This document shows positions 1,308 to 27,974 of a DNA stretch of 35,932 nucleotides, piece by piece. How positions within the stretch are numbered: position 1 is the first letter of the stretch; each line of letters begins with the position of its first letter. The notes beneath the pieces were generated by a model. The model saw only the letters and a program-made list of their open reading frames with translations, made no database searches and was not told where the DNA came from. The stretch comes from Sedimenticola thiotaurini (GTDB lineage Bacteria; Pseudomonadota; Gammaproteobacteria; Chromatiales; Chromatiaceae). The stretch lies in the NCBI GenBank assembly GCA_011051715.1, contig DRKP01000085.1:1-35932 (forward strand). Direction: 5' to 3'. A program made the position numbers and the translations under genes.

Positions 1308-1829
1308 ATGCCGTCCAGCGACTCCCCCCCTCCCGCCCTGCGGCAACATCTGCTGGTCTACCTGTCGGTCTATCTCCTGTGGCTGCTGCTGGCGGAGCGC
1401 ATCGATGGCCAGGAACTGCTGGCCGGGGCCCTCGCGGCGCTGGTGGTGACCATCGCCAGCGCGCCCTACGCCGGACTGTTCTCCGCGCTCCGGCTCACGC
1501 CGGCCGCGCCGCTCCATCTGCTGCGCTATCTCGGTTACTTCTTCGCCGCCCTGATCCGGGCCAACCTGGACGTGGCGCGGCGGGTGCTCTCCCCGACGCT
1601 GCCGATCCGGCCGGCGCTGGTGGAGGTGCAGACCCGTCTCGTTTCGCCCCTCGGTCGCATGCTGCTGGCCAACAGCATCACCCTCACCCCCGGCACCCTG
1701 TCGGTGGACATCGACGACGACCGCATCCTGGTGCACTGGATCGACTGTCCCCCCGGCGCCGATCTGGAGACGGCCACGCAGCGGATCGCCGCAGGCTTCG
1801 AGCGCCACATCCTCGGTTTCCTCGAATGA
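1308..1829 (+). CDS. mrpE: Na+/H+ antiporter subunit E (MrpE/MnhE family)
   Basis: 173 aa. Family traits: an N-terminal hydrophobic block (LLVYLSVYLLWLLLA), a YLGYFFAALIRANLDVARRVL segment typical of MrpE, and a C-terminal globular part with ANSITLTPGTLSVD. MrpE is a small membrane subunit of the Mrp multisubunit cation/proton antiporter; homologous subunits occur in MBH- and MBS-type respiratory complexes. I chose the ATG at 1308 because AGAAGGAA lies just upstream. An in-frame ATG at 1254 lies inside the candidate promoter and has no ribosome site. It is the first gene of the operon and overlaps the next by ATGA. The product probably helps assemble the antiporter module. Confidence 0.9.
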   Translation: MPSSDSPPPALRQHLLVYLSVYLLWLLLAERIDGQELLAGALAALVVTIASAPYAGLFSALRLTPAAPLHLLRYLGYFFAALIRANLDVARRVLSPTLPIRPALVEVQTRLVSPLGRMLLANSITLTPGTLSVDIDDDRILVHWIDCPPGADLETATQRIAAGFERHILGFLE

Positions 1830-2092
1830 TCGCCAACCCGCTGGAACAGGTCGCCCTTCTGCTGCTGGGCTCGGCCCTGCTGCTCGGTCTGCTGCGACTG
1901 CTGCTCGGACCCACGGCGCCTGACCGCATCGTCACCGCCGACACCCTGTCGGTGATCGTCACCGCCGGCCTGGCGGTGGTCGCCCTGCTGCTGCTCAACC
2001 CGGTCTACCTGGACGTGGCGCTGATCTACGGACTGCTCTCGTTCGTCGGCGTGGTCGCCCTGGCCCGGGCCATCGAGGGGGGGCGGCGATGA
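1826..2092 (+). CDS. mrpF: Na+/H+ antiporter subunit F (MrpF/MnhF family)
   Basis: 88 aa with three hydrophobic helices. The hallmark is the LLLGPTAPDRIVTADTLS stretch after the first helix, containing the GPTAPDRI-type signature of MrpF. The start is the ATG inside the ATGA overlap with mrpE; upstream in-frame codons fall inside mrpE and were discarded. It is a small integral membrane subunit of the Mrp-type module and ends in an ATGA overlap with mrpG. Confidence 0.92.
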   Translation: MIANPLEQVALLLLGSALLLGLLRLLLGPTAPDRIVTADTLSVIVTAGLAVVALLLLNPVYLDVALIYGLLSFVGVVALARAIEGGRR

Positions 2093-2403
2093 GACTGGCC
2101 GGGGATATATTCCTGCTGATTGGCGCCCTGTTCTGCCTGCTGGCCACCATCGGCCTGCTGCGCATGCCGGATACCTACAACCGCATCCAGGCCGGCACCA
2201 AGGCCGGCACCCTGGGGGCACTGAGCCTGCTGCTGGGCGTGGCCCTGATCCAGCCGGAATGGTGGGCCAAGCTGCTGACGATCGCCGGCTTCATCCTGTT
2301 CACCAGCCCGGTGGGCTCCTCCACCATCGCCCGGGCCATCCACCTGGTGGGCATCCGGCCGTGGCGCAATCCGCCCATCGAGGCACCGGAGGAGGAGAAA
2401 TGA
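2089..2403 (+). CDS. mrpG: Na+/H+ antiporter subunit G (MrpG/MnhG family)
   Basis: 104 aa, about three transmembrane helices. The family signature LLRMPDTYNRIQAGTKAGTLG at residues 24-44 and the SPVGSSTIARA segment identify MrpG. It has the normal length for the family. It overlaps mrpF upstream and the MbhD-like gene downstream, each by four bases, which suggests translational coupling. E-F-G followed by the D-like and B pieces is the order found in MBH/MBX/MBS-type clusters rather than the A-to-G order of classical Mrp operons. Confidence 0.93.
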   Translation: MRLAGDIFLLIGALFCLLATIGLLRMPDTYNRIQAGTKAGTLGALSLLLGVALIQPEWWAKLLTIAGFILFTSPVGSSTIARAIHLVGIRPWRNPPIEAPEEEK

Positions 2404-2675
2404 TCTGGCTGGTGAGTGTCATCGTGGTACTGATGCTGGGCGCCGCCCTGGCGGTACTGCTGCTGCGCAACCCGGTCGGCGCGGTGGCGGCGGCCTCGGT
2501 GGTATCGCTGGCGCTGTCGGTACTGTTCGTGCTGTTGCGGGCACCGGATGTCGCCATGACCGAGGCGGCGGTGGGCGGTGGCCTGGGCAGCCTGATCCTG
2601 GCCCTCTCCCTGCGCCGGCTCGGGCTGTGGCGGGTCGAGGGGGACAGGGCGGAACAGGAGCGGGACGATGCGTAA
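2400..2675 (+). CDS. MbhD-like membrane subunit (DUF4040, MrpA C-terminal module)
   Basis: 91 aa with three helices. The segment LLRAPDVAMTEAAVGGGLGS around residues 47-66 is the signature of the DUF4040/MbhD domain, which forms the C-terminal part of MrpA in ordinary antiporters. Here it is a free-standing gene, as in membrane-bound hydrogenase clusters. The ATG at 2400 follows GGAGGAG and overlaps the mrpG stop. The acidic C-terminal tail (GDRAEQERDDA) is cytoplasmic by inference. It probably forms part of the ion path between the antiporter and the membrane arm. Confidence 0.85.
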   Translation: MIWLVSVIVVLMLGAALAVLLLRNPVGAVAAASVVSLALSVLFVLLRAPDVAMTEAAVGGGLGSLILALSLRRLGLWRVEGDRAEQERDDA

Positions 2676-3354
2676 CCTGGCCTCCCTGCTGTTCGCCGGC
2701 GGCCTCGCCTTCCTGCTGATGGCCATCGCCGCCCTCCTCCCGTTCGGACACCCACCGGTGCTGGCCGGCGGCGCCATCCTGGAACAGGCGGCCGACCAGG
2801 TGGGGGCGGCCAACATCGTCACCGCCGTGGTACTGGGCTACCGCGGACTCGACACCCTGGGCGAGATCACCATCCTGTTCGCCGCCGCTGCCGGTCTCGG
2901 CCTGGTCCTCGGCCGCCGCCGCGCCGGGGCGCCGCGCGACCCCGACGCCGGCCCGGTCCTGCGCACCGGCGCGGCCCTGATGTTCCCGCTGCTGGTGCTG
3001 GTGGGGTTCCACATCATCCTGCACGGACACCTGACCCCGGGAGGCGGCTTCCAGGGCGGTGTGATCCTGGCCGCCGCCTTCTTCCTGCCCCTGCTGGCCC
3101 GCCCCGGCACCCCGGTGGACCATCCCGGCCTGAGCCTGGTGGAGGGAACCGCCGGTGCGGTCTTCATCGTCACCGGCCTGGTCGCCCTGCTGACCGGCGG
3201 CGAATTCCTGCAGCCGCTGCTCGGCACCGGCACCCTGGGCACCCTGTTCTCCGCCGGTACCCTGCCGATCCTCTACCTCGCCCTCGGACTCAAGGTCGGA
3301 GCCGAGCTGGCCGGCCTGCTGGCACGACTGGCGGACGCGGAGACCGACACATGA
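2668..3354 (+). CDS. mrpB: MbhE-MrpB fusion subunit of the antiporter module
   Basis: 228 aa. Residues 1-80 resemble MbhE/the last helices of MrpA: a first helix, a hydrophilic loop, then NIVTAVVLGYRGLDTLGEITILFAAA, whose YRGxDTLGE core is diagnostic. From about residue 100 the protein is MnhB/MrpB: FHIILHGHLTPGGGFQGGVILAAA with the conserved HGHLTPGGGFQGG core. The two parts are separate genes in many MBH clusters, so this is a fused form. It overlaps its neighbours by 8 bases upstream and 4 downstream. Inferred role: membrane subunit of the cation/proton translocation unit. Confidence 0.9.
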   Translation: MRNLASLLFAGGLAFLLMAIAALLPFGHPPVLAGGAILEQAADQVGAANIVTAVVLGYRGLDTLGEITILFAAAAGLGLVLGRRRAGAPRDPDAGPVLRTGAALMFPLLVLVGFHIILHGHLTPGGGFQGGVILAAAFFLPLLARPGTPVDHPGLSLVEGTAGAVFIVTGLVALLTGGEFLQPLLGTGTLGTLFSAGTLPILYLALGLKVGAELAGLLARLADAETDT

Positions 3355-3824
3355 TGCCCGCCGGTCTGCCGTTCCTCTTCTATGCCGGGGCCATCGGCCT
3401 GCTGGTGATCGGGATCAGCGGCATTGTGCTGTCCCGCAACCTGTTCCGCATCATTCTCGCCCTCGCCCTCGCCGAGGCCGGCGCCAACCTGCTGCTGGTG
3501 CTGGCCGGCTGGCACTGGGGCGGAAGCGCCCCCATCCTGGGGCAGGGCAAGGCGCTGGAGACCATGGTCGACCCGGTTCCCCAGGCCCTGGTGCTCACCG
3601 CCATCGTCATCGGCGTCGGCATCCAGGCCCTGGCCCTGGCCCTGGCGGTTCGGGCCTATCGCGCCTACGGCACCCTGGACATGCGCCGGCTGCGCAACCG
3701 CATGAACCGGGACATCGCGGCGGCCGCCGGCATCCCGGCAGAGAGCAGCCGGGACGCGCCGGCCGGGGGCCGGCCCACCCCGCCGGTACCGGCGGCCCAC
3801 CGCAGCGGCGGAGGGCGGGCATGA
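3351..3824 (+). CDS. mrpC: Na+/H+ antiporter subunit C (MrpC/NuoK-like)
   Basis: 157 aa. Three helices cover residues 5-110, with NuoK-type features: GISGIVLSRNLFRIILALALAEAGANLLL and DPVPQALVLTAIVIGVG, including the PQALVLTAIVIG core of MrpC. The last 50 residues are a hydrophilic Pro/Ala/Arg-rich tail not needed by the family; its base composition is like its surroundings, so it may be a natural extension. MrpC corresponds to complex I NuoK and carries conserved membrane acids in the proton path. It begins with tandem ATG codons and overlaps the next gene by ATGA. Confidence 0.92.
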   Translation: MMPAGLPFLFYAGAIGLLVIGISGIVLSRNLFRIILALALAEAGANLLLVLAGWHWGGSAPILGQGKALETMVDPVPQALVLTAIVIGVGIQALALALAVRAYRAYGTLDMRRLRNRMNRDIAAAAGIPAESSRDAPAGGRPTPPVPAAHRSGGGRA

Positions 3825-5338
3825 GCCAGATCGCCCTCACCATCGCCCTGCCGTTCCTGGCCGCCTTCCTGCTGCCGGTGATCGGGCGGGTGTACGAGGC
3901 GCTGGCGCGCGTCCTCGGGCCGCTGGTGCTGCTCTACTGCCTGTGGCTGGTGCTGCAACTGTGGGGCACCGGCGACGGCCACCCGGTCGCGCTGGCGATG
4001 GGCGGCTTCCGGCCACCCATGGGAATCACCCTCTACGTCGACCGGCTGGCCCTGCTGTTCACCCTGCTGGTCTCCCTGATGACACTGCTGCTGTGGCCCT
4101 GGCAGCGCGCCGCCGACAGCCGGGAATGCGCCCTCACCCTGCTGCTGGCCGGGTCCGCCAGCGGCCTGGCCCTGTCCGGCGATCTGTTCAACATCTACGT
4201 CTTCTACGAGCTGGTCTCAGTAGCCTCCTTCGGCCTGGTCGCGGTCCATCGCAGCGGCGCCGCCTTCGTCGCCACCCTGCGTTACCTGGTGATCAGCGGT
4301 TTCGGCACCGTGCTGGCCCTGACCGGCATCGCCCTGGTCTACAGTCAGACCGGCACTCTCAACCTGGCCCAGCTCGCCCAGCTGGCCCCGGATCTGCTCG
4401 CCGGCCCGGTCGGCCTGGCCGGCTTCCTGTTCATGCTGCTCGGGTTCGGCGTCAAGGGCGAGCTGTTCCCGGTCAACACCTGGGTACCGGAGGTCTACGC
4501 CACCGCGCCGGCCCGTGCCAGCGCCCTGCTGGCGGGGCTGGTCTCCAAACTGTCGCTGCTGGTCGTGCTGCGGCTGCTGGTGCTGCTTTACCAGCAGGAG
4601 CAGGCACTGCAACTGCTGCTGCTCCTCGGGGTACTGGGCGTGATCAGCGGCGAGCTGGCGGCGTGGCGGGCACGGGACCTGAAGCGGATGCTGGCCTTCT
4701 CCTCCATCGGTCAGCTCGGCGCCATGTTCATTGCCTTCTCCATCCCCGGCAATGCCGGGCTGCTGGCCGGGCTGGCACTGGCCCTGCACCACCTGCTGGT
4801 GAAGCCGGCCCTGTTCCTGCTGGCAGCCGGCTGGCCGGGGGCAGTGGAGCGGCTGCGCGGCCTGGCCCGCGGCGGACCGCTGGCGGCCGGCCTGTTCGTG
4901 CTGCTGGCCCTGTCCCTGATCGGGGTGCCACCCCTCCCCGGCTTCTGGGCCAAGATGCTGCTGGTGGTGGGGCTGGCCGGCCAGGAGTCCGGTTACCTGC
5001 TGGCGCTGGCGGTGGTCCTCGGGGCGGCAGTGCTGGAGGCCAGCTACCTGTTCCGGGTGGTGGCACAGCTCTACCACAGGGACGAGGAGGCGGCGCGGCC
5101 GCGGCCCTACCTGCTCGACCTGGGCAGCGCGGCCCTGGCCGGCGCGGTGCTGCTCAGCGCGGTCCCCTTCATCAGTCCCCTCGGCGACTGGCTGGCCGGG
5201 ACCGCGGCCCAGGCGGGGGACCGGGAGGGCTACATCATCACCGTCTTTCCGGCCGCCGGCCGGCCGCTGTACTCCGCCGCCGGCGGCGGGAAACCGGCCC
5301 TGGCGGCCGCCGGCCCACTCCCGGAGCCGAAACCATGA
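3821..5338 (+). CDS. mrpD: MrpD-like proton-translocating antiporter subunit (NuoN/NuoM family)
   Basis: 505 aa, about 14 helices. It carries the proton-translocating quinone oxidoreductase signature: NIYVFYELVSVASFGLVA with the key Glu of helix 5 (FYE), then GVKGELFPVNTWVPEVYATAPARASALLAG with the helix 7 Lys (GVKG) and a following Lys in VSKLS, and RDLKRMLAFSSIGQLG with another Lys. These charged residues form the central hydrophilic axis that moves protons in MrpA/D and NuoL/M/N. The C-terminal tail from about residue 455 is variable. It overlaps both neighbours by four bases. Subunit identity (MrpD) is inferred from the position after mrpC. Confidence 0.9.
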   Translation: MSQIALTIALPFLAAFLLPVIGRVYEALARVLGPLVLLYCLWLVLQLWGTGDGHPVALAMGGFRPPMGITLYVDRLALLFTLLVSLMTLLLWPWQRAADSRECALTLLLAGSASGLALSGDLFNIYVFYELVSVASFGLVAVHRSGAAFVATLRYLVISGFGTVLALTGIALVYSQTGTLNLAQLAQLAPDLLAGPVGLAGFLFMLLGFGVKGELFPVNTWVPEVYATAPARASALLAGLVSKLSLLVVLRLLVLLYQQEQALQLLLLLGVLGVISGELAAWRARDLKRMLAFSSIGQLGAMFIAFSIPGNAGLLAGLALALHHLLVKPALFLLAAGWPGAVERLRGLARGGPLAAGLFVLLALSLIGVPPLPGFWAKMLLVVGLAGQESGYLLALAVVLGAAVLEASYLFRVVAQLYHRDEEAARPRPYLLDLGSAALAGAVLLSAVPFISPLGDWLAGTAAQAGDREGYIITVFPAAGRPLYSAAGGGKPALAAAGPLPEPKP

Positions 5339-7209
5339 CCGCCCTGGACAACCTGCTGCTGCTCGCCCTGCTCACCGTCCTGCTGCTGCTGGCGGGCCGG
5401 CGGCTGTCGTCCCTGGGCTGGTACCTCACCATCCTGTTCGGTGCCCAGTTCGCCGGGCTGCTGATGATGGGGGCGCTGGGCTATGGCGCCCCGCCGGTAC
5501 CCTCCTCGCTGCACATCGGTGTGATGGGGCAGGTCATGCAGTGGCGCTTCGACGCCCTCTCCTGGCTGTTCGCCCTGATCACCGTCGGCGCCGGCCTAAC
5601 CAGCAGCTGGTACCTGGCCGGTGACTGGGGCCGCCACTACCGGCAGCGGGGAGGCAACCTGTGGCTGCTGCAGCTGGCCCTGGCCGTCAACGTATTCAGC
5701 ATGCTGCTGCTGCTTGCCAGCGGCGACCTGCTGTCCCTGTTCATCGGCTGGGAACTGGTGAGCTGGTCCGCCTTCCTGCTGATGGCCCTCAACGGCGCCG
5801 ATGCCATGCGCGCCGCCCTGCGCTACATCACCTACGCCATGGCCGGGGCGATGGCCATGATGGCGGGACTCGGCCTGGTGCTGCATACCGCCGGCTCCCT
5901 GCAGTATGCCGACCTCGCCGCTGCCGTGCCCACCCTCAGCAGTCCCCAGTTGTGGGGCCTGATCCTGCTGTTCGGGATGGGGTTCGGGGTCAAGATGGGA
6001 CTGCTGCCGCTGCACCTGTGGCAGGCGCGGGCCTACTCCGAGACACCCGGCCCCGGGGCCTCCTTCCTCGGCGCGGTCTCCACCCGCATGGGGTTGTGGG
6101 GGCTGATCCTGGTGCTGGTGCAGCTGGTCGGACTGGTGCCGATCGCCGACCTCGCCATCCCCTACACCTTCCTCGATGCCCGCGAACTGCTGATGTGGGT
6201 GGCCGCACTGACCATCATCCTGCCGACCTACACCGCCCTGCGCCAGAACGATGCCCGCATGCTGCTGGCCTGGCACGGCATCGGCCAGGGCGGATACATG
6301 CTGCTCGGGGTGCTGATGGGGGACGCCATGGGCAGCGCCGGCGGCCTGATGCACGCCTTCAACTACGCCACCTACCAGGCCCCTCTGTTCATGGCGGTGT
6401 ACGCGGTCCGCTACCGCACCGGCACCAGCGACCTGAACCGGCTCGGCGGCCTGGTGACGCGCATGCCACTGTCGTTCCTGGTGATGCTGGTCGGCATCAT
6501 CGGCCTGGCCGGCCTGCCGCCGATGAACGGCTTCGTCTCCAAGTGGTTGATCTACCGCGGACTGATCAACGACGGCCAGCCCCTGCTGTTCATCGCCGCC
6601 GTGGTCGGGACCTTCGGTACCATCCTGTCGGTCTACAAGCTGATCCACAACACCTTCCTGGGCCAGCTGCGGCTGGAACACGTGGAGGTGCGCGAGGCAC
6701 CCTGGAGCATGACCGTGCCCATGCTGCTGCTGTCGGCGGTGGTATTCGTCACCGGCTACCTGCCGGGACTGGTGCTGGACTGGGTGGCGGCCGCCCAGCA
6801 GGCCGTCGGCCTGCCGGTACTGGTCCACACCCTGGGCGGCGTCGAATCGCCACTGGGCAGCCTCGACATGATCTGGGTCAGCTCGCTGATGTTCGCCGGC
6901 TTCGGCATCGGCGCCCTGCTGTTCTACGCCGGCGGCAACCGGTCCAAGGCGGTACACCAGCTGGACAACTATGCCGGCGGTCACTTCCTCAGCGCCGACG
7001 TGCGCTACCAGTACAGTGACCATTTCTACGCCGGCCTGATGCGCCACATCGGACCGCTCTACCGCAACAGTTTCCAGTGGCTGGAGGGGGCTCTTGGCAC
7101 CACCGTCGAGACCCTGGGCGCGGCCATGCGGGCCTTCTACCGCCAGCACCACCCGGCCATCTACCTGCTGGCAGTGACCACGGCCGGCCTGATCTGGGTG
7201 ATCCTGTGA
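5335..7209 (+). CDS. NuoL/HyfB-like proton-translocating subunit of the membrane arm
   Basis: 624 aa and about 16 helices. LSLFIGWELVSWSAFLLMAL contains the conserved helix-5 Glu, and GFGVKMGLLPLHLWQARAYS contains the helix-7 Lys. Two later axis positions that are Lys in most relatives appear as Arg: AVSTRMGLW and NDARMLLAWHG. The C-terminal 90 residues hold an amphipathic stretch and a last helix, like the long subunit of membrane-bound hydrogenase and hydrogenase 4 complexes. The start is the ATG overlapping the mrpD stop; the same frame stays open far upstream only because of high GC. As the second large antiporter-like subunit it probably links the Mrp module to the NuoH-like anchor. Confidence 0.88.
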   Translation: MTALDNLLLLALLTVLLLLAGRRLSSLGWYLTILFGAQFAGLLMMGALGYGAPPVPSSLHIGVMGQVMQWRFDALSWLFALITVGAGLTSSWYLAGDWGRHYRQRGGNLWLLQLALAVNVFSMLLLLASGDLLSLFIGWELVSWSAFLLMALNGADAMRAALRYITYAMAGAMAMMAGLGLVLHTAGSLQYADLAAAVPTLSSPQLWGLILLFGMGFGVKMGLLPLHLWQARAYSETPGPGASFLGAVSTRMGLWGLILVLVQLVGLVPIADLAIPYTFLDARELLMWVAALTIILPTYTALRQNDARMLLAWHGIGQGGYMLLGVLMGDAMGSAGGLMHAFNYATYQAPLFMAVYAVRYRTGTSDLNRLGGLVTRMPLSFLVMLVGIIGLAGLPPMNGFVSKWLIYRGLINDGQPLLFIAAVVGTFGTILSVYKLIHNTFLGQLRLEHVEVREAPWSMTVPMLLLSAVVFVTGYLPGLVLDWVAAAQQAVGLPVLVHTLGGVESPLGSLDMIWVSSLMFAGFGIGALLFYAGGNRSKAVHQLDNYAGGHFLSADVRYQYSDHFYAGLMRHIGPLYRNSFQWLEGALGTTVETLGAAMRAFYRQHHPAIYLLAVTTAGLIWVIL

Positions 7210-8108
7210 TGAGTATCGGAACCCTCGCCCTGGAGCTGCTGCTGATGCCGCTGGTCGCCTTCGTCGTCGGCCTGGCCATGGTACTGATGCTGCGCCGCAT
7301 CGGCGCCCGCATCCAGCGCCGGGTGGGGCCGCCCCTGCTGCAGCCGCTGTACGACGTGGTCAAGCTCTATGGCAAGCAGACCCAGATCTCCCACGGCATC
7401 GTCCACGACATCGGCATCGTCATGGCGGTGGGCGGCTACATCGCCGCCGAGACCCTGCTGCCGGTTCCGGGCATGGACGGCATCGCCGCCAAGGGCGGTC
7501 TGATCACCCTGGTCTATGTGCTGATGGTGCCGATGCTGGGGCTGGCGCTCGGTGTCGGCCAGTGCGCCAACCCCAACGGCTCCATCGGCATCTCCCGCGC
7601 CCTCACCGCCATGCTCGCCTACGACATCCCCTTCGTGATCGTCGTCTTCGGCATCAGCTGGCACTACGGCACCACCGACCTGACCCGGATCATCGCCCTG
7701 CAGCAGGCGGCGGGACCGGCCGGCTGGGGCGCGGCGGAGATGCCGCTGCTGGCCATCGCCGGCCTGATCGCCCTGCACGCCTCACTCGGCAAGCAGCCGT
7801 TCGAGATCTACGTGGCGCCGGCCGAGATAGCCACCGGGCCGATGGTGGAGATGGGCGGCAAGTACCTTGGCGGCCTGTTCGTGATGCAGTGTTTCCAGCT
7901 CTATACCGCCAGCGTGCTCTACACCACCCTGTTCCTGGGTGGCGGCGAGAACTGGATCCTGTTCCTGCTGAAGATCTTCGCCGTGGTCGCCATCCCCATG
8001 ACCCTGGCCTACCTGTTCCCGCGCTACCGCACCGAGGACCTGGTGCGGCTGCTGTGGAAGTGGCCGGTGCTCATCGGCCTGGTGGGGCTGGCGCTGGTGA
8101 TGCGGTGA
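7209..8108 (+). CDS. NuoH/EchB-like membrane anchor subunit
   Basis: 299 aa, eight helices. Near the N-terminus it has RIQRRVGPPLLQPLYDVVKLYGKQ, with the RVGPPxLQPxYDxxKL core shared by NuoH and energy-converting hydrogenase anchors. The acidic loop KQPFEIYVAPAEIATGPMVEMGGK matches the FE-x-AEaE region near the quinone or coupling site. NuoH-type subunits join the redox arm to the ion-translocating arm. The short length and the LYGKQ signature are closer to EchB/MbhM/HyfC than to complex I NuoH (about 325 aa). The start ATG shares one base with the preceding stop. A 170-bp gap follows, the largest break before the peripheral subunits. Confidence 0.9.
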   Translation: MSIGTLALELLLMPLVAFVVGLAMVLMLRRIGARIQRRVGPPLLQPLYDVVKLYGKQTQISHGIVHDIGIVMAVGGYIAAETLLPVPGMDGIAAKGGLITLVYVLMVPMLGLALGVGQCANPNGSIGISRALTAMLAYDIPFVIVVFGISWHYGTTDLTRIIALQQAAGPAGWGAAEMPLLAIAGLIALHASLGKQPFEIYVAPAEIATGPMVEMGGKYLGGLFVMQCFQLYTASVLYTTLFLGGGENWILFLLKIFAVVAIPMTLAYLFPRYRTEDLVRLLWKWPVLIGLVGLALVMR

Positions 8109-8278
8109 AACGCTGGTTTTCAGCAAGTGGTTGACTGGCTGCGAATGGACAGGCCCGGACGCGAAACCGGAGTATCGCCCGGTGTAAACCGGCAGCCGCC
8201 CCCTGCCACGGGAGCAGAAGGAGGCGATAATCACGTTCATCCGCATGCATTCGCGGCAACGAACTCAGGACGAAAGGC

Positions 8279-8971
8279 ATGAAGGAACTCGATGTTCGGA
8301 TAGAGACACCGGAACAGAGGCCCCGCAGCAACCCTCTGGCACGGGTGTTCGACGAGCTGGTGCGCTTCTGCCGCTCCCGCTCCATGTTCATGCTGCACTA
8401 CTGCACCGGCTGTGGCGCCATCGAGCTGCCGCCGGCGATGACCTCACGCTTCGACATGGAGCGCCTGGGCATCCAGCCCATGGTGACACCGCGCCAGGCC
8501 GACATCCTGCTGATCACCGGCTACGTCTCGATCAAGACCCTGAAACGGGTGATCCTCACCTACGAACAGATGAGCGCACCCAAGTACGTGATCGGCATCT
8601 GCTCCTGCACCGTCAACGGCGGCATGTACTGGCAGAGCTACGCCACCGCCAAGCGGCTGGACCAGTACCTGCCGGTGGACCTCTACATCGCCGGCTGCAT
8701 GCCGCGGCCGGAGGCGGTGATCACCGGCATGCGCGAGCTGATGGCCAAGATCCGGGACGGCCGCGCCGACTCCTGGCAGGACTACTACCGTCGCTACGAC
8801 TGGTACCTGGGCAACCAGCAGCACCTGTTCGGCGACGACTGGCAGACCCCGACCGACGTGATCGGGGAGGCGGAACACTACCGGCTGACGGGCCCGGAGA
8901 CCCTGGGCGAACACACTGCCCTGCTGCAACAGCACCAGAAGCCGCTGGAACCATTGAAACTGCAACTATGA
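8279..8971 (+). CDS. NuoB/hydrogenase-small-subunit-like Fe-S protein
   Basis: 230 aa. Cluster ligands visible: C42-T-G-C45, C110 in the SCTVNGGMY segment (matching the CxxxGG of NuoB) and C140 in AGCMPRPEA. Complex I NuoB has adjacent cysteines at the first site; here the spacing is CxxC, as in energy-converting hydrogenase small subunits (MbhJ/EchC type). The protein should hold the proximal [4Fe-4S] cluster, equivalent to N2, at the junction of the peripheral and membrane arms. GAAAGG precedes the ATG. The C-terminal 60 residues are a hydrophilic extension. It ends 120 bases before the chosen NuoC-like start. Confidence 0.9.
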   Translation: MKELDVRIETPEQRPRSNPLARVFDELVRFCRSRSMFMLHYCTGCGAIELPPAMTSRFDMERLGIQPMVTPRQADILLITGYVSIKTLKRVILTYEQMSAPKYVIGICSCTVNGGMYWQSYATAKRLDQYLPVDLYIAGCMPRPEAVITGMRELMAKIRDGRADSWQDYYRRYDWYLGNQQHLFGDDWQTPTDVIGEAEHYRLTGPETLGEHTALLQQHQKPLEPLKLQL

Positions 8972-9091
8972 ACGCCCCCTGCAGCAGCGGCATCCCGCCG
9001 CGAACGCATGGCCACGGCCGCCGCCCGTTTCATCCGCAGCGGTGCGCCGCTTCCAGGGGGCCTTCCACCACCTGTACCGGGGACGACCACC

Positions 9092-9646
9092 ATGGCCGCG
9101 ACTGAGATCACCCGCTGGCTCGACAACCTGCTGACCGAGATCGAGGGCGTCCGTATCGAGCGCCGGAACGACAAGCGGTTGCGCGTCGACGTGGCCGCCG
9201 AGGCCCTGCCGGCGTTGCTCGAACTGCTGCGGGGGCGCGCCAGCTACGTCCACCTCTCCGCCATCAGCTGCGTCGACTGGATCGACGACGGCGAGTTCGA
9301 GCTGGTCTACCACCTCTGGTCCTACGAGAGCCAGTCCCTGATCTCGGCCCACATCCGCATCCCGCGCGACCCCGGTGTCTACCTGTCGGTGTTCGACCTG
9401 TACCAGCCCGCCGCCTTCTTCGAGCGCGACATCCACGAGATGTACGGCATCTTCTTCGAGGGCAGCCCCGACATGGAGAAGTTCATTCTCACCGAATGGG
9501 ACGGCCCGCCGCCGATGCGCAAGGAGTTCGACTCCGAGGCCTGGGTCAACGACACCTTCGACTGGCAGGAATACAGGCCGGACTGGCTGCGTGAGATCGA
9601 GGCCCGGGGTGGCGGCATCGAGATTCCGCCGGAGGAGCAGCGGTGA
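9092..9646 (+). CDS. NuoC-like 30-kDa subunit
   Basis: 184 aa. The conserved complex I 30-kDa signature is present at residues 110-150: FERDIHEMYGIFFEG followed by a LTEWDGPPPMRKEFD segment, matching the ErExxDmfGi...R/PPLRKDyP pattern of NuoC and MbhK. NuoC-type proteins have no cofactor and hold the NuoB-NuoD interface together. I chose the ATG at 9092 (GGGGA about nine bases upstream) because the protein then begins directly with the domain; an in-frame ATG at 9008 would add a Pro/Arg-rich leader of 28 residues and cannot be excluded. It overlaps the next gene by GTGA. Confidence 0.88.
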   Translation: MAATEITRWLDNLLTEIEGVRIERRNDKRLRVDVAAEALPALLELLRGRASYVHLSAISCVDWIDDGEFELVYHLWSYESQSLISAHIRIPRDPGVYLSVFDLYQPAAFFERDIHEMYGIFFEGSPDMEKFILTEWDGPPPMRKEFDSEAWVNDTFDWQEYRPDWLREIEARGGGIEIPPEEQR

Positions 9647-10785
9647 GACCGGAGAACTACCAGGCCATCAATCATCCGCCGAGCAACGAGTACGAGCTCA
9701 ACTTCGGCCCCAACCACCCCGGCATCGAGGGCAACTACGCCCTCAAAGTGAAGCTGCAGGGGGACCAGGTGGTGGCCGCCCGGGCCGATGGCGGCTACCT
9801 GCACCGCGGCTTCGAGAAGCTGATGGAGGGGCGGCTGTGGATCCAGAACATCGCCCTGGTGCCACGCATCTGCGTGCCCGATCCGGTGCCGATGGAGGTG
9901 TGCTACTCGCTGGCGATCGAGGAGCTGGGCGGGCTGAAGGTACCGGAACGGGCCCAGTGGATCCGGGTGCTGCAGCTGGAGCTGTCGCGCATCGCCGCCC
10001 ACCTGTTCACCTTCGGCGGCCACGCCGCCACCACCGGCATGTACACCACCCACTACTGGGGCACCGCCGACCGGGACCTGGTCCTGGACCTGTTCGAGGA
10101 GCTCTCCGGCGGCCGCGTCTACCACATCTTCAACATCCCCGGCGGCGTGCGCCGGGAGCTGCCGGACGGCTTCCTGCAGCGGGTCTCCGACACCCTCGAC
10201 TATCTGGAGAGCCGGCTCAGCGACTACGACAACCTGTTCTTCCGCAACCAGGTGTTCGTGCGCCGCTCCAGGGGGGTTGGACAGATGAACCAGCAGCAGG
10301 CCCTGGAGTGGGGCGTCACCGGTCCCAACCTGCGTGCCACCGGCCTCGCCTTCGACGTGCGCCGGGACGACCCCTATCTGGTCTACGACCAGCTCGAATT
10401 CGACATCCCCACCGAGGAGGCGGGCGACGCCTGGGCCCGCACCCTGGTACGGCGCGCCGAGCTGACCCAGAGCCTGCGTATCGTCCGCCAGGTGGTCGAG
10501 GCCCTGCCCGACATCGACGGCCCGGTGCGCTGCCCCATCCCCAACCCCCTGGCCTGGAACCTGCCACCGGGAGAGACCTATACCCGGGTGGAGTCCTCCA
10601 AGGGCGAGCTGGCCTACTACGTGGTCTCCAATGGCGGCGACAAGCCCTACCGGGTGCACGTGCGCGGACCATCGGCGATGCACGCGGTGCGGGTGCTGGA
10701 GCAGCTCTCCATCGGCAACCGGCTGGAGGATGTGGCGCAGGTGATGTTTTCGCTGGATGCCTGTCCGCCGGAGGTGGATCGATGA
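9643..10785 (+). CDS. NuoD / NiFe-hydrogenase-large-subunit-like protein with altered metal motifs
   Basis: 380 aa starting at a GTG preceded by GGAGGAG and overlapping the NuoC-like stop. It is homologous to complex I NuoD and group 4 hydrogenase large subunits (GPNHPGIEG near the start, GGYLHRGFEKL, ALEWGVTGPNLRATGL, PRCPxPN region). In hydrogenases NiFe is held by RxCGxC and DPCxxCxxR. Here the equivalent motifs are R75-I-C77-V-P-D80 and D372-A-C374-P-P-E377-V-D-R380: the first Cys of each pair is kept and the second is acidic. Complex I has lost all four. A normal NiFe site is therefore unlikely, and the partial loss recalls archaeal MBX/MBS subunits. Substrate is unknown; quinone, polysulfide or another acceptor are possibilities. 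Confidence 0.92.
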   Translation: MRPENYQAINHPPSNEYELNFGPNHPGIEGNYALKVKLQGDQVVAARADGGYLHRGFEKLMEGRLWIQNIALVPRICVPDPVPMEVCYSLAIEELGGLKVPERAQWIRVLQLELSRIAAHLFTFGGHAATTGMYTTHYWGTADRDLVLDLFEELSGGRVYHIFNIPGGVRRELPDGFLQRVSDTLDYLESRLSDYDNLFFRNQVFVRRSRGVGQMNQQQALEWGVTGPNLRATGLAFDVRRDDPYLVYDQLEFDIPTEEAGDAWARTLVRRAELTQSLRIVRQVVEALPDIDGPVRCPIPNPLAWNLPPGETYTRVESSKGELAYYVVSNGGDKPYRVHVRGPSAMHAVRVLEQLSIGNRLEDVAQVMFSLDACPPEVDR

Positions 10786-10922
10786 GCGGGATCTTGAGCT
10801 ATATCGTCACAGGCGCTGTCGCCGCTTCGCGGCGGTCTCTTCAGATGCGGGTTCCCGCACCCGCAGGCGGGTCCCTTTCTTTTGCGCGCCCAAAAGAAAG
10901 GGACGAAAGAAAAGGGCGCCCG

Positions 10923-11040
10923 CTGTCACACCCCTTCGGGGTGCCCTGCGATGCTCGGTCCATCCGGCGGGCCCGGAACTCGCTTCGCTCAGACAACCGG
11001 GCCCTTCCCCCGGATGGCCCTGCGCTTCTCGGTGTGACAG
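10923..11040. repeat. Nested stem-loop with 20-nt loop (first of a complementary-loop pair)
   Basis: Outer arms CTGTCACACC (10923-10932) and GGTGTGACAG (11031-11040) are perfectly complementary. Inside, CATCCGG (10961-10967) pairs with CCGGATG (11010-11016), and GGGCCCGG (10969-10976) pairs with CCGGGCCC (10997-11004). The loop at 10977-10996 reads AACTCGCTTCGCTCAGACAA, the exact reverse complement of the loop of the hairpin at 11116-11179. Confidence 0.8.
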
Positions 11041-11115
11041 AGGGGGATGCCCCCCTTCGATCGACCACCTTGGTACAACCGGGGCCTTGCGACTCATGCG
11101 CCACCGAGCAACGCA

Positions 11116-11179
11116 GTAAAACAGGGATCAGGACCGCGGTTGTCTGAGCGAAGCGAGTTCCGCGGTCCCCCTGTTTTAC
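11116..11179. repeat. Long stem-loop whose loop is complementary to the upstream hairpin
   Basis: GTAAAACAGGG (11116-11126) pairs with CCCTGTTTTAC (11169-11179), and GGACCGCGG (11131-11139) pairs with CCGCGGTCC (11160-11168), giving a 20-bp stem with only a 4-base bulge on one side. The loop TTGTCTGAGCGAAGCGAGTT (11140-11159) is the reverse complement of the loop at 10977-10996, so the two loops could pair with each other in RNA. Confidence 0.8.
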
Positions 11180-11357
11180 GAGTAGCGCAGGGCACCCCGC
11201 AGGGGTGGCGCATTGGAGCGAATGGTTTTGGTTACTTTTGCCGAAACAAAAGTAACCCGGCTTGCGGGCCGGGACCCGCATTCAAACAGTTCGTCGCGTA
11301 GCGACACAAAACCGTATCCGCAGGACCACTGAGAGTACGATTCCACAGAGATACCGA

Positions 11358-13229
11358 ATGTCCAACCCAGCCCCCGACCGCAAATCCGCCCCCGTGGCCC
11401 CGCCCATCGACCACGACGACACCGGCTCCCTGCTGGCGCCGCTGAAGGCGCTGCAGTTCTTCGGCCGCCGGCCGGTCACCGAGTCCCTGGAGCCGCGGCC
11501 GGCGTCGCTCAACTACCGCGGTTTCCACCTCAACGACTGGGAGCTGTGCATCGGCTGCGCCACCTGCCAGAAGGTGTGTGACAACGCCGCCATCAGCATG
11601 ATTCGCATACCGGGTCTGAAGGAGGATGCGGTGGCCGGGGTGCGTGCCCTGCGCCCGGCCATCGACTACGGCCGCTGCTGCTGGTGCGGGCTGTGCGTCG
11701 ACATCTGCCCCTCCAGCTCCCTCTCCCTGTCGCGGGAGTACGTGCACACCTGCTACCAGGAGCAGCTGGACAGCTACTTCATCCTGCCCGATCCCAACGG
11801 CATGCATGGCCGCTTCTTCGGCCATGGCTGGACCAAGACGCCGGAATCGGATCTGCTGGAGCTCGAACGCGAACCGATGGCGGAGCTGGAACCGGCCAGC
11901 CGCAGCGACAACTTCGACGAGATCGTGGCCGGCTACACGCCGCAGCAGGCGATCCTCGAGGCCTCCCGCTGCGTGCAGTGCGGCATGTGCCACGACGCCT
12001 GCCCCACCCACATGGATGCACCGGAGTACATCCGCGCCATCTGGCAGGGGGACGCCGAACAGGCGGTGCGGGAGATCTACCGTACCAATCCCTTCTCTCA
12101 CGTCTGTGGCCGGGTCTGCACCCGCCGTTGCGAAACGGCCTGCTCCATCGGCCGCCGCGGCGACCCGGTGGCGATCCGCTGGCTGAAGCGCTTCGCCATG
12201 GATGCGGTGGACCCCGCCCGGGTGAAGGAGATCGCCGCCGAAGGCAGGGCCGACTACCTGAGCGGCCATCGCGTGGCGGTGATCGGGGCCGGGCCGGCCG
12301 GCCTCACCGCCGCCTTCGATCTGGTGAAGAAGGGACACGAAGTGGTGGTGTTCGAGGCCCAGGCGCGGGCCGGGGGCATGACCCGCTACGGCATCCCCGA
12401 GTACCGCATGCCGAGGGAGATGCTGGACCGGGACATCGAGGTGATCACCTCTCTCGGCGTGCAGATCAGGTACGACACCAGGGTGGGGAAAGACGTTCCG
12501 ATGGCGCAGCTGCAGCGGGAATTCGACGCCGTGCTGCTGGCCATCGGCCTGCAGCTGGGCCGCTCCACCCGTATCCCCGGCTCCGATCACCCTGATGTAC
12601 GCAAGGCCGTGGACCTGCTGCGCGACATCTCCGCCGGCGAGCCGCCGGAGGTACCGGAACAGGTGGTGGTGATCGGTGGCGGCAACGTGGCCATGGATAT
12701 CGCCCGCAGCCTGGCGCGACTGCAGCGGCAGCAGCATGGCAAGGTGGGCATCACCGTCATCGCGCTGGAGGACTTTGGCCATTTCCTGGCCGATCCGGTG
12801 GAGGTGAAGGAGGCGCACGAGGAGGGCATCGTCATCCTCGACAGCCGGGGACCCCAGCAGTGCGTCATCGACGACGAGGGCAGACTGCAGGGCCTGCGCA
12901 CCTGGAAGGTGCTCTCCATCTTCGATGAGCAGCACCGCTTCGCCCCCCGCTACGACGACAAGGACGAACAGCTCCATCCGGGACAGATGATCGTGGAGGC
13001 GATCGGCCAGATGTCCGATGTCGGCCTGCTCGGCGAGGCCCTGACCGAGGAGCTGGAGTGGAACCGGGGCCGGCTGCAGGTGGACGACGAGGGACGCACC
13101 TCGGTGGAGTGGCTCTGGTCCGCCGGTGACTGCGTCCACGGACCCGACGTGGTGCATGCGGTGGCCGACGGCCACCGGGTCGCGGCCAGTATCGATGCCT
13201 GGATATCCCGGGAGGAGGCAAGCGCATGA
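11358..13229 (+). CDS. NuoI-type ferredoxin fused to GltD-type FAD/NAD(P)H oxidoreductase
   Basis: 623 aa. Residues 1-60 are a linker with a NuoI-like N-terminus. Two [4Fe-4S] motifs follow: C64xxC67xxC70xxxC74 and C107xxC110xxC113xxxC117P. A second Fe-S domain of the GltD/DPYD type has C205xxC208xxxxxxC215 and C250xxxC254xxxC258xxxC262. The flavoprotein part has the FAD Rossmann motif VIGAGPAGLTAA near 308 and a nucleotide-binding motif VVVIGGGNVAMDIARS near 455, with a C-terminal SAGDCVHGPDVVHAVADG signature. It should carry electrons between NAD(P)H and the Fe-S chain of the NuoB/C/D-like arm, in place of the complex I NADH module. Start chosen at 11358 after weak AGAG; frames upstream run through palindromes. 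It overlaps the next gene by ATGA. Confidence 0.9.
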   Translation: MSNPAPDRKSAPVAPPIDHDDTGSLLAPLKALQFFGRRPVTESLEPRPASLNYRGFHLNDWELCIGCATCQKVCDNAAISMIRIPGLKEDAVAGVRALRPAIDYGRCCWCGLCVDICPSSSLSLSREYVHTCYQEQLDSYFILPDPNGMHGRFFGHGWTKTPESDLLELEREPMAELEPASRSDNFDEIVAGYTPQQAILEASRCVQCGMCHDACPTHMDAPEYIRAIWQGDAEQAVREIYRTNPFSHVCGRVCTRRCETACSIGRRGDPVAIRWLKRFAMDAVDPARVKEIAAEGRADYLSGHRVAVIGAGPAGLTAAFDLVKKGHEVVVFEAQARAGGMTRYGIPEYRMPREMLDRDIEVITSLGVQIRYDTRVGKDVPMAQLQREFDAVLLAIGLQLGRSTRIPGSDHPDVRKAVDLLRDISAGEPPEVPEQVVVIGGGNVAMDIARSLARLQRQQHGKVGITVIALEDFGHFLADPVEVKEAHEEGIVILDSRGPQQCVIDDEGRLQGLRTWKVLSIFDEQHRFAPRYDDKDEQLHPGQMIVEAIGQMSDVGLLGEALTEELEWNRGRLQVDDEGRTSVEWLWSAGDCVHGPDVVHAVADGHRVAASIDAWISREEASA

Positions 13230-13729
13230 GCGAAGGCAACCGCAGCAGTTACGACCGGCTGAAACAGAAGACCAGCCTGAAGGAGATCCTGGCGGTCGCC
13301 ACCGAGTTCGAGCGCACCGCCCGCGACTTCTACACCGACCTGGCGCCAAAGGTGAGCAAGAACATCCGCTACCTGGTGGAGGAGCTGGCAGAGGAGGAAC
13401 AGCAGCACTACGACCTGTTCACCCGGCTGGCCCAGAACCCGGACATCATGGAGTTGATCCAGGCCGAGGTGGAGACACCGGCCAGCAACGGCCGTTTCTC
13501 CGACTGCATCCTGCTGCCGGACCTGGGCGACCAGCCGGACGACCAGGCGGTGCTGCAGTATGCCCTCGCCCGTGAGCACGCCGCCATGGAACAGTACCAG
13601 GCCCTGGCCGACAGCACCGCCCCCGGCCCGATCCGGGATCTGTTCCGCTTCCTCGCCAACGAGGAGACCAAGCACAAGAACGAGCTGGAGCGGATCTACT
13701 ACGAGACGGTCCACAGCGGCGGCGTCTGA
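13226..13729 (+). CDS. Ferritin-like / rubrerythrin-type diiron protein
   Basis: 167 aa. Four-helix ferritin-like arrangement: EFERTARDFYTDLA (helix 1, Glu ligand), EELAEEEQQHYDLF (helix 2, ExxxH), REHAAMEQYQALAD (helix 3) and FLANEETKHKNELERIY (helix 4, ExxKH). The spaced Glu and ExxH motifs fit a diiron carboxylate site as in rubrerythrin; there is no C-terminal rubredoxin CxxC domain. It is translationally coupled to the GltD fusion and is the last gene of the operon, so it probably serves the complex, for example peroxide or oxygen protection or iron handling. The role is inference. Confidence 0.85.
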   Translation: MSEGNRSSYDRLKQKTSLKEILAVATEFERTARDFYTDLAPKVSKNIRYLVEELAEEEQQHYDLFTRLAQNPDIMELIQAEVETPASNGRFSDCILLPDLGDQPDDQAVLQYALAREHAAMEQYQALADSTAPGPIRDLFRFLANEETKHKNELERIYYETVHSGGV

Positions 13730-13886: not shown

Positions 13887-15356
13887 TCAGGATGAACAGG
13901 ACTTCGGCTCGCCATCGCAGAGTCGTTCCCTGGCCTGTTCACGCCGTTTCGACTGCTCCTCCAGCATACGGTAGGCGACGTAGTACTTGAGGATGTTGCG
14001 CACGTATCGCACCGTCTCCTGCCCCACCAGCTTCAGTGCCGCGATCTCAACGTTGTCGAACCAGCGGTCCGGGTCCAGCCCCATCTGCTTCGCCAGGCTG
14101 CGCATCCGCCGTACCCTGGCCGGGCCGGCGTTGTAGGCGGCGAAGGAGAAGTAGGCCCGGTCGGCGGCCGGCATCCCCGGATCGGAGAAGTAGCGGTCAC
14201 GCAGATAGGCCAGGTACTTCACCCCGGCGTGGATATTGTTCTCCAGCCGGTCGATGTTCCCGATCTCCACCGGCTTGCCGGCGGCGGTGGAGGGCTTGAT
14301 CTGCATGATACCGACCGCACCCGAGGGGTTGCGCCTGGACTGGTCCAGCCCCGATTCCTGGTAGCCGATGGCCGCAATCATCAGCCAGTCGAAGCCATAC
14401 TGCCGGGCGTACTTCTGCAACAGGGGTTCCACCTCCCGCAACCGCTGCCGCTCGCGCCTGCCCACCGGGTTGGTGATCCAGCGGGTGTTCCGGTAGTAGC
14501 GCCGGAACAGGATGTTGCCCAGCAGGGAGCCCTTGCGATGGTTCTTCAGGAAGCGGTTGAGACTCGCCAGCAGTTGCGGGCTGTTCCTGCGCACCGCCCA
14601 GGCGATGCGTCCATCCCGGTTGATACTCACCTCAGGCAGCAGGCGGATACCGGGCAGCACCTCCCGCCACAGGCCGGCGATGTGATCGTCGGCGAAGGTA
14701 TAGTCGAACACCCCTGCATTCACCAGCTCCAGCAGATCTTCGGTCTGCAGGTGGATATCCACCTCCTCCACCTTCACCGGCCCGATCCCCTGGCTGCGCC
14801 AGCGCCGGTTCAGGCGCTGCAGGTGCTGGGCATAGCTGCTCCCCGCCAGCACGAACACCCGGCGTCCCGACAGATCCTCGATCCGCTTCACTTCCGGTGC
14901 ATCCGCCGCCGCCACCAGGATCTCCTTCACTCCGGTGATGTAGGGATCGGTGAAGTCCACCTGCCGCTGCCGTTCCGGGGTGACGGTGACCCCGGCGGCC
15001 ACCAGGTCGCCCCGGCCGGCCACGAGGGCGGGCAGCAGGTCTCCGAAGGGCTGGGGCAGATAGATCAGGTCGGTGCGGATCTTCGAACCACCCGTATCGC
15101 GGTTGAGGAAGGCCTCGTAGGCCTGGGTGAGCTCGTATTCGAAGCCGGCTTTCCTGGCGCCTGCGAGGAAGTAGTTGGTGCGGCTGGGGGCCACCAGGAC
15201 CCGGATGAAGCCGCGCTTGCGCAGCGCCGGCAGATCGCCGCTGAAGGGCTCGCCCAGATCGTCCGGCAGGATCTCCGGCTGGGGTGCCGTCTCCGCGGCA
15301 GCGCCACCCCCGGCCCAGCCGAGCAGCCCCCAGAGCAGCCATGGCAGCAGCCTCAC
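13887..15356 (-). CDS. mltF: Membrane-bound lytic murein transglycosylase F
   Basis: 489 aa. A signal sequence (RLLPWLLWGLLGWAGGGAAA) precedes a family-3 solute-binding-like domain at residues 40-290 (GFIRVLVAPSRTNYFL, VDFTDPYITGVKEILVA). An SLT lysozyme-like domain follows from about 310: IGYQESGLDQSRRNP with the catalytic Glu of the ES motif near residue 330, then GAVGIMQIKPSTA and AAYNAGPARV. This order and length match MltF, which cleaves peptidoglycan at the outer membrane. The start is a GTG overlapping the stop of the LplT-like gene; upstream codons in this frame lie inside that gene. No lipobox cysteine is obvious. It ends convergently with the Mrp operon. Confidence 0.92.
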   Translation of the reverse strand: MRLLPWLLWGLLGWAGGGAAAETAPQPEILPDDLGEPFSGDLPALRKRGFIRVLVAPSRTNYFLAGARKAGFEYELTQAYEAFLNRDTGGSKIRTDLIYLPQPFGDLLPALVAGRGDLVAAGVTVTPERQRQVDFTDPYITGVKEILVAAADAPEVKRIEDLSGRRVFVLAGSSYAQHLQRLNRRWRSQGIGPVKVEEVDIHLQTEDLLELVNAGVFDYTFADDHIAGLWREVLPGIRLLPEVSINRDGRIAWAVRRNSPQLLASLNRFLKNHRKGSLLGNILFRRYYRNTRWITNPVGRRERQRLREVEPLLQKYARQYGFDWLMIAAIGYQESGLDQSRRNPSGAVGIMQIKPSTAAGKPVEIGNIDRLENNIHAGVKYLAYLRDRYFSDPGMPAADRAYFSFAAYNAGPARVRRMRSLAKQMGLDPDRWFDNVEIAALKLVGQETVRYVRNILKYYVAYRMLEEQSKRREQARERLCDGEPKSCSS

Positions 15357-27759: not shown

Positions 27760-27806
27760 GGCGCCCAAGCATAGCAAACATGGACCCCATTGCGGCTCAG
27801 ATTGGG

Positions 27807-27974
27807 CTAGGAGCCTGTCGGGCTTGATGCGGTTTGGCAGCAAATCCCTGGATGGCGATCAACTCAGCTTATCGAATTCGTTAAATAGCCCTGTTATTCT
27901 CCTCATTCGATCAACCGATTTGATTCGCCCCCAGTGATTTTCGCTTCAAACGATCAAGTCCGACAGGCTCCTAG
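27807..27974. mobile_element. MITE-like element with 22-bp terminal inverted repeats
   Basis: The ends 27807-27828 and 27953-27974 are inverted copies with one mismatch, starting CTAGGAGCCTGTCGG. The 124-bp interior is clearly AT-richer than the surroundings and has no coding frame. CTAG at both tips may be a 4-bp target duplication or part of the repeat. It lies between the divergent channel gene and menA, filling most of that 302-bp gap, and may affect their promoters. No transposase is present, so movement would need a helper. The parent insertion sequence family was not identified. Confidence 0.75.

Follow-up and report, generated by a model that had tools for sequence, protein, structure and literature searches.

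Judged by its sequence, the operon at positions 1308-13729 of the window (the whole stretch of DNA analysed, 35,932 nt of contig DRKP01000085.1 from the gammaproteobacterium Sedimenticola thiotaurini) encodes a bacterial MBX complex of the MBS type, a known kind of complex, in which the MbsN subunit is fused to a GltD-like flavoprotein. We propose that this complex, an MBX with an NADH module of its own, may act as a reversible, ion-translocating NADH:sulfane-sulfur oxidoreductase, a reading to which we give an even chance. MBX/MBS complexes have already been described in bacteria, and it is the GltD-fused, NADH-type clade that appears from sequence to be a new variant.

Gene content and affiliation of the operon

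The operon is composed of 14 open frames on the same (+) strand, with overlaps at 10 of the 13 gene junctions and gaps of 170, 120 and 572 bp at the remaining three, the 120-bp gap upstream of nuoC shrinking to 36 bp if the earlier nuoC start at 9008 is used. A first-pass annotation of this DNA had counted thirteen contiguous, mostly overlapping genes; the overlap is confirmed and the number is 14. Pfam (ten proteins) and NCBIfam (ten proteins) between them assign every one of the 14 to a family, in agreement with the Mrp module, the NuoL/H/B/C/D homologues, the ferredoxin-GltD fusion and the ferritin-like protein reported there. Comparison with PDB sequences covered NuoD, NuoB, NuoH, NuoL, MnhD and the fusion. 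The features are as follows.

1308..1829, +, mnhE / MbsA-type antiporter subunit (PF01899, 3.7e-39; GTG start at 1254 also possible)
1826..2092, +, mnhF / MbsB (PF04066, 1.2e-15)
2089..2403, +, mnhG / MbsC (PF03334, 1.3e-25)
2400..2675, +, mbhD / MbsD (PF13244, 3.6e-17)
2668..3354, +, mbhE-mnhB fusion / MbsE (PF04039, 2.7e-20; PF20501, 1.5e-6)
3351..3824, +, mnhC / MbsG (PF00420, 1.8e-23)
3821..5338, +, mnhD / MbsH, H+-pump-like subunit (6u8y_H, 228 bits; next 7qru_D, 162)
5335..7209, +, nuoL-like / MbsH', second pump-like subunit (6u8y_X, 170 bits, sole PDB match below 1e-40)
7209..8108, +, nuoH-like / MbsM membrane anchor (6u8y_M, 188 bits, versus 74 for MBH 6cfw_M)
8279..8971, +, nuoB-like / MbsJ, predicted proximal [4Fe-4S] (6u8y_J, 224 bits, versus 118 for NdhK)
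9092..9646, +, nuoC-like / MbsK (PF00329, 2e-26; start at 9008 also possible)
9643..10785, +, nuoD-like / MbsL (6u8y_L, 417 bits; tree)
10786..11357, intergenic gap of 572 bp with inverted-repeat arms 10929-10999 and 11137-11207
11358..13229, +, MbsN-GltD fusion, 623 aa (N-terminally 6u8y_N, NfnB/GltD beyond; fold search; NF010590)
12768..12770, +, Glu codon in place of the second Arg of the NADP-type YRR loop (alignment)
13226..13729, +, rubrerythrin-like di-iron protein (PF02915, 6e-13; di-iron ligands)

For NuoB, NuoD, NuoH, NuoL and MnhD, the best solved relative is in each case a chain of the Pyrococcus furiosus MBS (6u8y). Among all PDB sequences, NuoD matches MbsL (6u8y_L, residues 14-380) with 417 bits, versus 262 for Thermus thermophilus Nqo4 and 144.5 for MBH, while the N-terminal part of the fusion scores 71 bits with MbsN (6u8y_N). 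The order of the 13 subunit genes in the window is that of the P. furiosus mbx genes PF1453-PF1441 (PMC2678158, Table 4).

Further comparisons were based on 93 loci, window included, whose named-genome part consists of the best 80 of at least 564 relatives. Counts refer to sequences and not to events, since some genomes occur twice (at least L037/L066 and L039/L078 are identical), and L045, cut at a contig end, was excluded from alignments. In a maximum-likelihood tree of NuoD, 8 complex I rows are separated with 100/100 support from 30 rows of MBX/MBS type, which comprise MbsL, the window and 28 of the remaining 92 loci. Long branches were flagged in this tree for MbsL, Nqo4, L123 and cI_L139, and a motif filter had removed several complex I rows, that of the window's own genome included, together with the hydrogenase-like L152 and L153. 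The complex I NuoD of the same genome (L001) was found among other complex I rows in an earlier tree containing mis-framed rows (L131, L132 and L138). No nuoE, nuoF or nuoG match was detected among the 14 genes with Pfam or NCBIfam.

Taken together, the best MBS matches, the mbx gene order, the tree and the MBS-type site residues described below identify the operon as a bacterial MBX complex. It is the bacterial variant and not the archaeal form, because the MbsN part is fused to GltD instead of being a separate ferredoxin-accepting subunit. Complex I shares the NuoB/C/D/H/I core; its identity was rejected since NuoD lacks the quinone-site His and Tyr and is placed by the tree in a separate clade outside complex I, as the first-pass annotation had anticipated, and since the operon has no NuoE/F/G. 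A group 4 NiFe hydrogenase was rejected as well, the NiFe partner positions of the large subunit never being Cys in the 93 rows.

Residues of the active site

In P. furiosus MBS, polysulfide is reduced at a proximal [4Fe-4S] cluster held by only three cysteines (MbsJ C28, C93 and C123); MbsJ C25 is not a ligand, C25 and MbsL C85/C385 are dispensable, and the complex I residues His38 and Tyr87 are absent (PMC7684303). The window NuoD retains two of the four NiFe cysteines, C77 and C374 (MbsL C85 and C385), so that its NiFe site is incomplete, as first annotated. Across the 93 NuoD rows, Cys occupies the C85 position in 90 (Ala in 2, Asn in 1), its partner is never Cys (Asp in 54, Glu in 39) and the C385 position is Cys in 88, Tyr in 3, Val in 1 and a gap in 1; the quinone-site His and Tyr occur in none (0/93 each). 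In the window NuoB, C45, C110 and C140 are the predicted ligands and C42 is the spare cysteine, the CTGC motif with its short CxxC loop aligning to MbsJ without gaps. The ligand positions are Cys in 85/86 (C28), 86/86 (C93) and 85/86 (C123) NuoB rows. The spare C25 position is Cys in 56 of the 86 and Gly in 29, which fits its non-ligand role in MBS (PMC7684303). Because these tallies match the pattern of MbsL and MbsJ, the MBS-type active site is kept at the sequence level, with a predicted three-cysteine proximal cluster. Most of the charged residues named for MbsH, MbsH' and MbsM in the same paper are also retained when printed alignments are compared by eye; the exceptions are Lys at MbsH E219, Arg at MbsH' K248 and, in MbsM, Glu at D196, Gln at E193 and Val at E104.

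The MbsN-GltD fusion and its cofactor loop

The fusion is the only candidate in the operon for the place of MbsN, because no other gene among the 14 has a ferredoxin-type match in Pfam or NCBIfam. NF010590, a 'putative oxidoreductase' model, covers nearly all of it with 797 bits, below the cut-off of 946. Among the 93 loci, 82 matches to GltD were found, of which 73 were counted as full-length fusions after exclusion of rows shorter than 550 aa; these come from many phyla, so that the fused flavoprotein, pointed out earlier as distinguishing this version, is real without being special to this genome. Sixteen Fe-S cysteines are present in 73/73, enough for four [4Fe-4S] clusters, two each in the MbsN and GltD parts, the latter also containing domains for FAD and NAD(H). 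In an AlphaFold model (mean predicted local distance difference test score 82.9, mostly below 50 for residues 1-51), the GltD part is predicted to fold like NfnB, the best Foldseek hit being 5jca_L (E 3.6e-45).

In NfnB, the additional phosphate that distinguishes NADP is held by two arginines (PMC6405883). A YRRR loop is retained at the aligned position in 30 of the 73 fusions, among them those of Bacteroidota, Calditrichota, Thermotogota, two of the three WOR-3 and the divergent gammaproteobacteria L043 and L044. From the alignment and from general knowledge, we take its YRR part to hold the NADP-phosphate arginines. The loop is lost in the other 43, window included, which have Glu (42) or Gln (1) in a longer stretch ending in ALE (35), SLE (4), AME (2), CLE (1) or ALQ (1); the window reads A-L-E at the YRR position. 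In a GltD tree of 36 rows, the 18 sampled acidic-type fusions form one clade (100/100). Holders of this type are sulfur-oxidising Pseudomonadota, Spirochaetota and one WOR-3 genome. An acidic residue at the NADP-loop position usually marks the use of NADH. The acidic-loop clade thus fits a switch of cofactor from NADPH to NADH, and the link to NAD(P)H suggested earlier can be narrowed: in the clade of the window, NADH and not NADPH appears to be used.

The loop that carries the Glu ligand of NfnB has 3 residues in 73/73 fusions, as in NfnABC (9bov), versus 5 in NfnL (5vj7). Electron bifurcation by GltD is unlikely because of this shortening; no NfnA-like match was detected among the 14 genes with Pfam or NCBIfam. 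The fusion therefore shares its fold, two [4Fe-4S] clusters and FAD with NfnB/NfnL, GltD and StnC but differs from NfnB/NfnL in having no NfnA partner, in the replaced NADP-type arginines and in the shorter Glu-ligand loop. StnC offers a precedent for GltD as a non-bifurcating electron entry (PMC10482914).

One locus, L033 (11634-14499), is a mosaic operon in which an acidic-type GltD is joined to a divergent NuoD while its sisters L043 and L044 retain YRRR, so that modules have been exchanged.

Distribution of the operon

All 13 core genes are present in 55 of the 93 loci and occur in the same order in 54 of these, a conservation far beyond chance; the exception is L044, with a weak mbhD match before mnhG. 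The best 80 of at least 564 relatives in named genomes, Beggiatoaceae and Chromatiaceae included, start with tubeworm and lucinid symbionts, Sedimenticola, Parasulfuritortus, Thiohalocapsa, Lamprocystis and Thiomargarita/Beggiatoa, the next relatives being Spirochaetota, WOR-3, Bacteroidota, Calditrichota and Thermotogota. In Gammaproteobacteria, the class of the window, a full-length fusion was found in 13 of 274 genomes, its own included, and a contig-end fragment in one more; the remaining operon is present in all 12 other full-length cases, although contig ends truncate it in two of these (L033 and L043).

A gltD match occurs in 82/93 loci, less than 200 bp behind nuoD in 77 of them. The 11 loci without one comprise 7 with less than 600 bp of room and 4 with more than 3 kb (L072, L073, L074 and L079). 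These four are of Beggiatoaceae type; their operon is broken up and the fusion lies elsewhere in the genome. Overall, the fusion was detected in 8/8 Beggiatoaceae-type genomes (59-62% identity; three of the matches run over a stop codon). A DHVE2 archaeon has only an unfused MbsN-type frame of 253 aa behind nuoD and no full-length fusion. The locus L104 is titled Sulfurovum yet its NuoD falls among Bacteroidota, pointing to a binning error or to transfer.

Association with a rubrerythrin-like gene

A rubrerythrin-like gene follows gltD in 34/34 main-clade Pseudomonadota loci whose fusion is full-length and whose contig leaves room of 700 bp or more, in 1/2 divergent gammaproteobacteria and in 1/20 loci of other phyla (L091), the neighbourhoods of the scattered Beggiatoaceae-type fusions being left out of these counts. 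The di-iron ligands E, ExxH, E and ExxH are conserved in 36/36 aligned relatives. In Spirochaetota (L082, L083, L084 and L085), fusions of ca. 750 aa carry a helical-looking C-terminal extension in 4/4 cases, which hints that rubrerythrin works with GltD. A ferritin profile matches this extension in L083 only (1e-9), possibly as a degenerate ferritin-like domain, and a Pfam search of the L083 and L085 fusions gave no ferritin domain. In L113 (Thermotogota), rubrerythrin is located directly before mnhE. The rubrerythrin-like protein probably protects an oxygen-labile cluster.

Association with sulfur metabolism

dsrA was detected in 14/14 genomes carrying the operon, above the cut-off in 11 and as partial matches below it (307-378 bits) in three (the window's own genome, G264 and G208). 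It was found in 9/39 operon-lacking genomes taken systematically (every seventh) and in 13/40 that were hand-picked; 14/14 versus 9/39 corresponds to a Fisher p of 3e-7 when relatedness is ignored. RuBisCO is present in 12 of the 14 operon genomes and a complex I NuoD, told by score, in all of them.

Members of the Beggiatoaceae respire stored sulfur (PMC4959497). In the Riftia symbiont, a 'putative Mrp-Mbx complex' is co-expressed with the reductive tricarboxylic acid (rTCA) cycle and hydrogenases, while most sulfur-oxidation genes go with the Calvin-Benson-Bassham (CBB) cycle (PMC11636981). This complex is probably an ortholog of the window operon, an assignment made because the Lamellibrachia and Escarpia symbionts carry the operon (NuoD identity 85%) and not from the Riftia symbiont genome itself; the excerpts of that paper describe neither a fusion nor a cofactor.

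Proposed reaction and alternatives

In the proposed reaction, electrons would pass from NADH to the FAD of the GltD part, through its two [4Fe-4S] clusters and the two of the MbsN part, to the proximal [4Fe-4S] of NuoB, where one iron without a cysteine ligand would, by analogy with P. furiosus MBS, cleave the S-S bonds of polysulfide-like sulfane sulfur. NuoH and the two pump-like subunits may couple this transfer to H+ or Na+ movement by the Mrp module. Running forward, NADH would reduce stored or cytoplasmic sulfane sulfur when O2 or nitrate and sulfide are scarce; running backward, at high sulfide and with an energised membrane, NAD+ would be reduced at the expense of the ion gradient. With potentials taken from general knowledge and a gradient of 180 mV, electron transfer from NADH to sulfur would release enough energy to move 1.1-1.5 ions per 2 e- if sulfide is at 1 mM and 2.1-2.5 if it is at 1 µM, the lower figures taking NADH at -280 mV. 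The complex would thus lie near equilibrium with two pump-like subunits, so that the sulfide level and the gradient could turn its direction either way. Of the two partners considered at first, sulfur compounds or quinone, the former is the likelier, the latter being weakened by the missing His and Tyr.

Several observations weigh against this proposal. Since NADH to sulfur yields few ions, forward pumping would be marginal. Sulfur globules are periplasmic in many such bacteria, so that a cytoplasmic sulfane carrier would be needed. The rule linking acidic residues to NADH is only a usual one, and the window-type fusion of Parasulfuritortus cantonensis (L063) has Gln instead of Glu. Tyr replaces the second MbsL cysteine in the gammaproteobacterial relatives L033, L043 and L044, and NuoD and NuoB pass the general NuoD and NuoB cut-offs of NCBIfam. 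The complex is not required for sulfur oxidation, as dsrA also occurs in the 9/39 operon-lacking genomes, and the co-expression pattern in Riftia makes sulfide oxidation less likely as its main role. Finally, we found no activity reported for any GltD-fused MBX.

The same complex could run mainly backward in lithoautotrophs, the ion gradient driving electrons from sulfide or polysulfide to NAD+ as a quinone-free reverse electron transport, which we consider possible if rather doubtful. The dsrA-bearing, mostly RuBisCO-bearing genomes, the apparent NADPH-to-NADH change of the clade and the small NADH-sulfur span facing two pump-like subunits would all suit this direction; set against them are the co-expression in Riftia, which is with the rTCA cycle and hydrogenases instead of the CBB cycle and sulfur oxidation (PMC11636981), the complex I in 14/14 operon genomes, which could itself serve reverse electron transport, and the same GltD type in Spirochaetota (4/4 full-length). 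That rTCA co-expression (PMC11636981) and the ferredoxin use of archaeal MBS (PMC7684303) would rather favour a ferredoxin-NADH converter, in which ferredoxin would dock on the MbsN part and be reduced there with sulfur or ion energy, to supply the rTCA cycle or nitrogen fixation; we regard it as unlikely, with the electron entry probably occupied by the fused GltD and bifurcation disfavoured by the loop shortened in 73/73.

A second complex I, acting as an alternative NADH:quinone oxidoreductase, would catalyse energetically the easiest forward reaction and is suggested by the NuoB/C/D/H homology and by the scores of NuoD (PRK06075, 442 versus 360 bits) and NuoB (PRK06411, 189 versus 116); it appears quite improbable given that the His38 and Tyr87 positions are never His or Tyr in 93 sequences, that the tree excludes complex I and that nuoE/F/G matches are lacking among the 14 genes. 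Nor is it at all likely that GltD fusion and rubrerythrin form a separate soluble NADH-peroxide or sulfur reductase merely located beside an MBX operon. The 572-bp gap before the fusion in the window, and the four Beggiatoaceae-type loci in which nuoD is not followed by the fusion held by the genome, would agree with such an enzyme, but the fusion is the sole operon gene with an MbsN-like domain, its 16 cysteines are kept in all 73 full-length cases and it lies within 200 bp of nuoD in 77 of the 82 loci with a match.

Should the reversible NADH:sulfane-sulfur oxidoreductase be correct, it would be an NADH-fed MBS using a different flavoprotein from that of complex I, and may be the enzyme with which sulfur-living bacteria breathe stored sulfur or make NADH from sulfide. 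The conserved NADH-type MBS would thereby be a named candidate both for the anoxic reduction of sulfur by bacteria that store it (Beggiatoa, purple sulfur bacteria, tubeworm and clam symbionts) and for the loading of NAD from sulfide in lithoautotrophs. The short loop predicts the cofactor, and relatives in named strains include Rectinema subterraneum SURF-ANA1 (acidic loop) and P. cantonensis LSR1 (Gln variant). More tentatively, and with considerable reserve, a branch of sulfur bacteria may have turned an archaeal sulfur reductase into a reversible NADH-coupled machine connecting sulfide/polysulfide and the NAD pool via the ion gradient, bypassing quinones. Such a machine would be the enzyme still missing from the respiration of stored sulfur and would also give CO2 fixation a second way of obtaining electrons by reverse transport.

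Relation to described complexes

The complex had initially been set apart from archaeal MBH, MBX and MBS, which does not hold for its MBX/MBS-type subunits and mbx order and does hold for the replacement of the separate MbsN by a fusion. With P. furiosus MBS (old name MBX; 6u8y) it shares the 13 subunits, the gene order, the MbsL cysteines, the proximal-cluster motif and the missing quinone site; it differs in being bacterial, in having MbsN, a separate ferredoxin-fed subunit in P. furiosus, fused to a flavoprotein, and in the adjacent rubrerythrin-like gene. Bacterial MBX/MBS complexes have also been published before (PMC9431562, PMC10356935 and, as 'putative', PMC11636981). Those of Thermotoga maritima (PMC9431562) and strain 3DAC (PMC10356935) are likewise bacterial and Mrp-coupled and are reported to go up with sulfur, but are modelled in print with ferredoxin. 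Two Thermotogota relatives, L113 and L116, carry the GltD fusion, but with the NADP-type YRRR loop; the operon of T. maritima itself lies outside this comparison. Searches of open-licence literature returned no description of a GltD-fused or NADH-type MBX; they do not cover subscription reviews on MBX evolution, one of which may describe the fusion.

Intergenic region and neighbouring genes

The start of the fusion is a chosen ATG at 11358, in a reading frame that opens with TTG at 11262. The 572-bp gap in front of it (10786-11357), unlike the spacing of less than 200 bp seen in 77 of the 82 loci with a gltD match, contains an imperfect inverted repeat with arms of 71 nt (80%); when searched with this gap, the window's own genome returned nothing except the gap itself. 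Downstream of the operon, on the opposite strand, are found a lytic transglycosylase with a solute-binding domain (13887-15635) and a large mechanosensitive channel gene with MscS porin and transmembrane domains (24280-27843).

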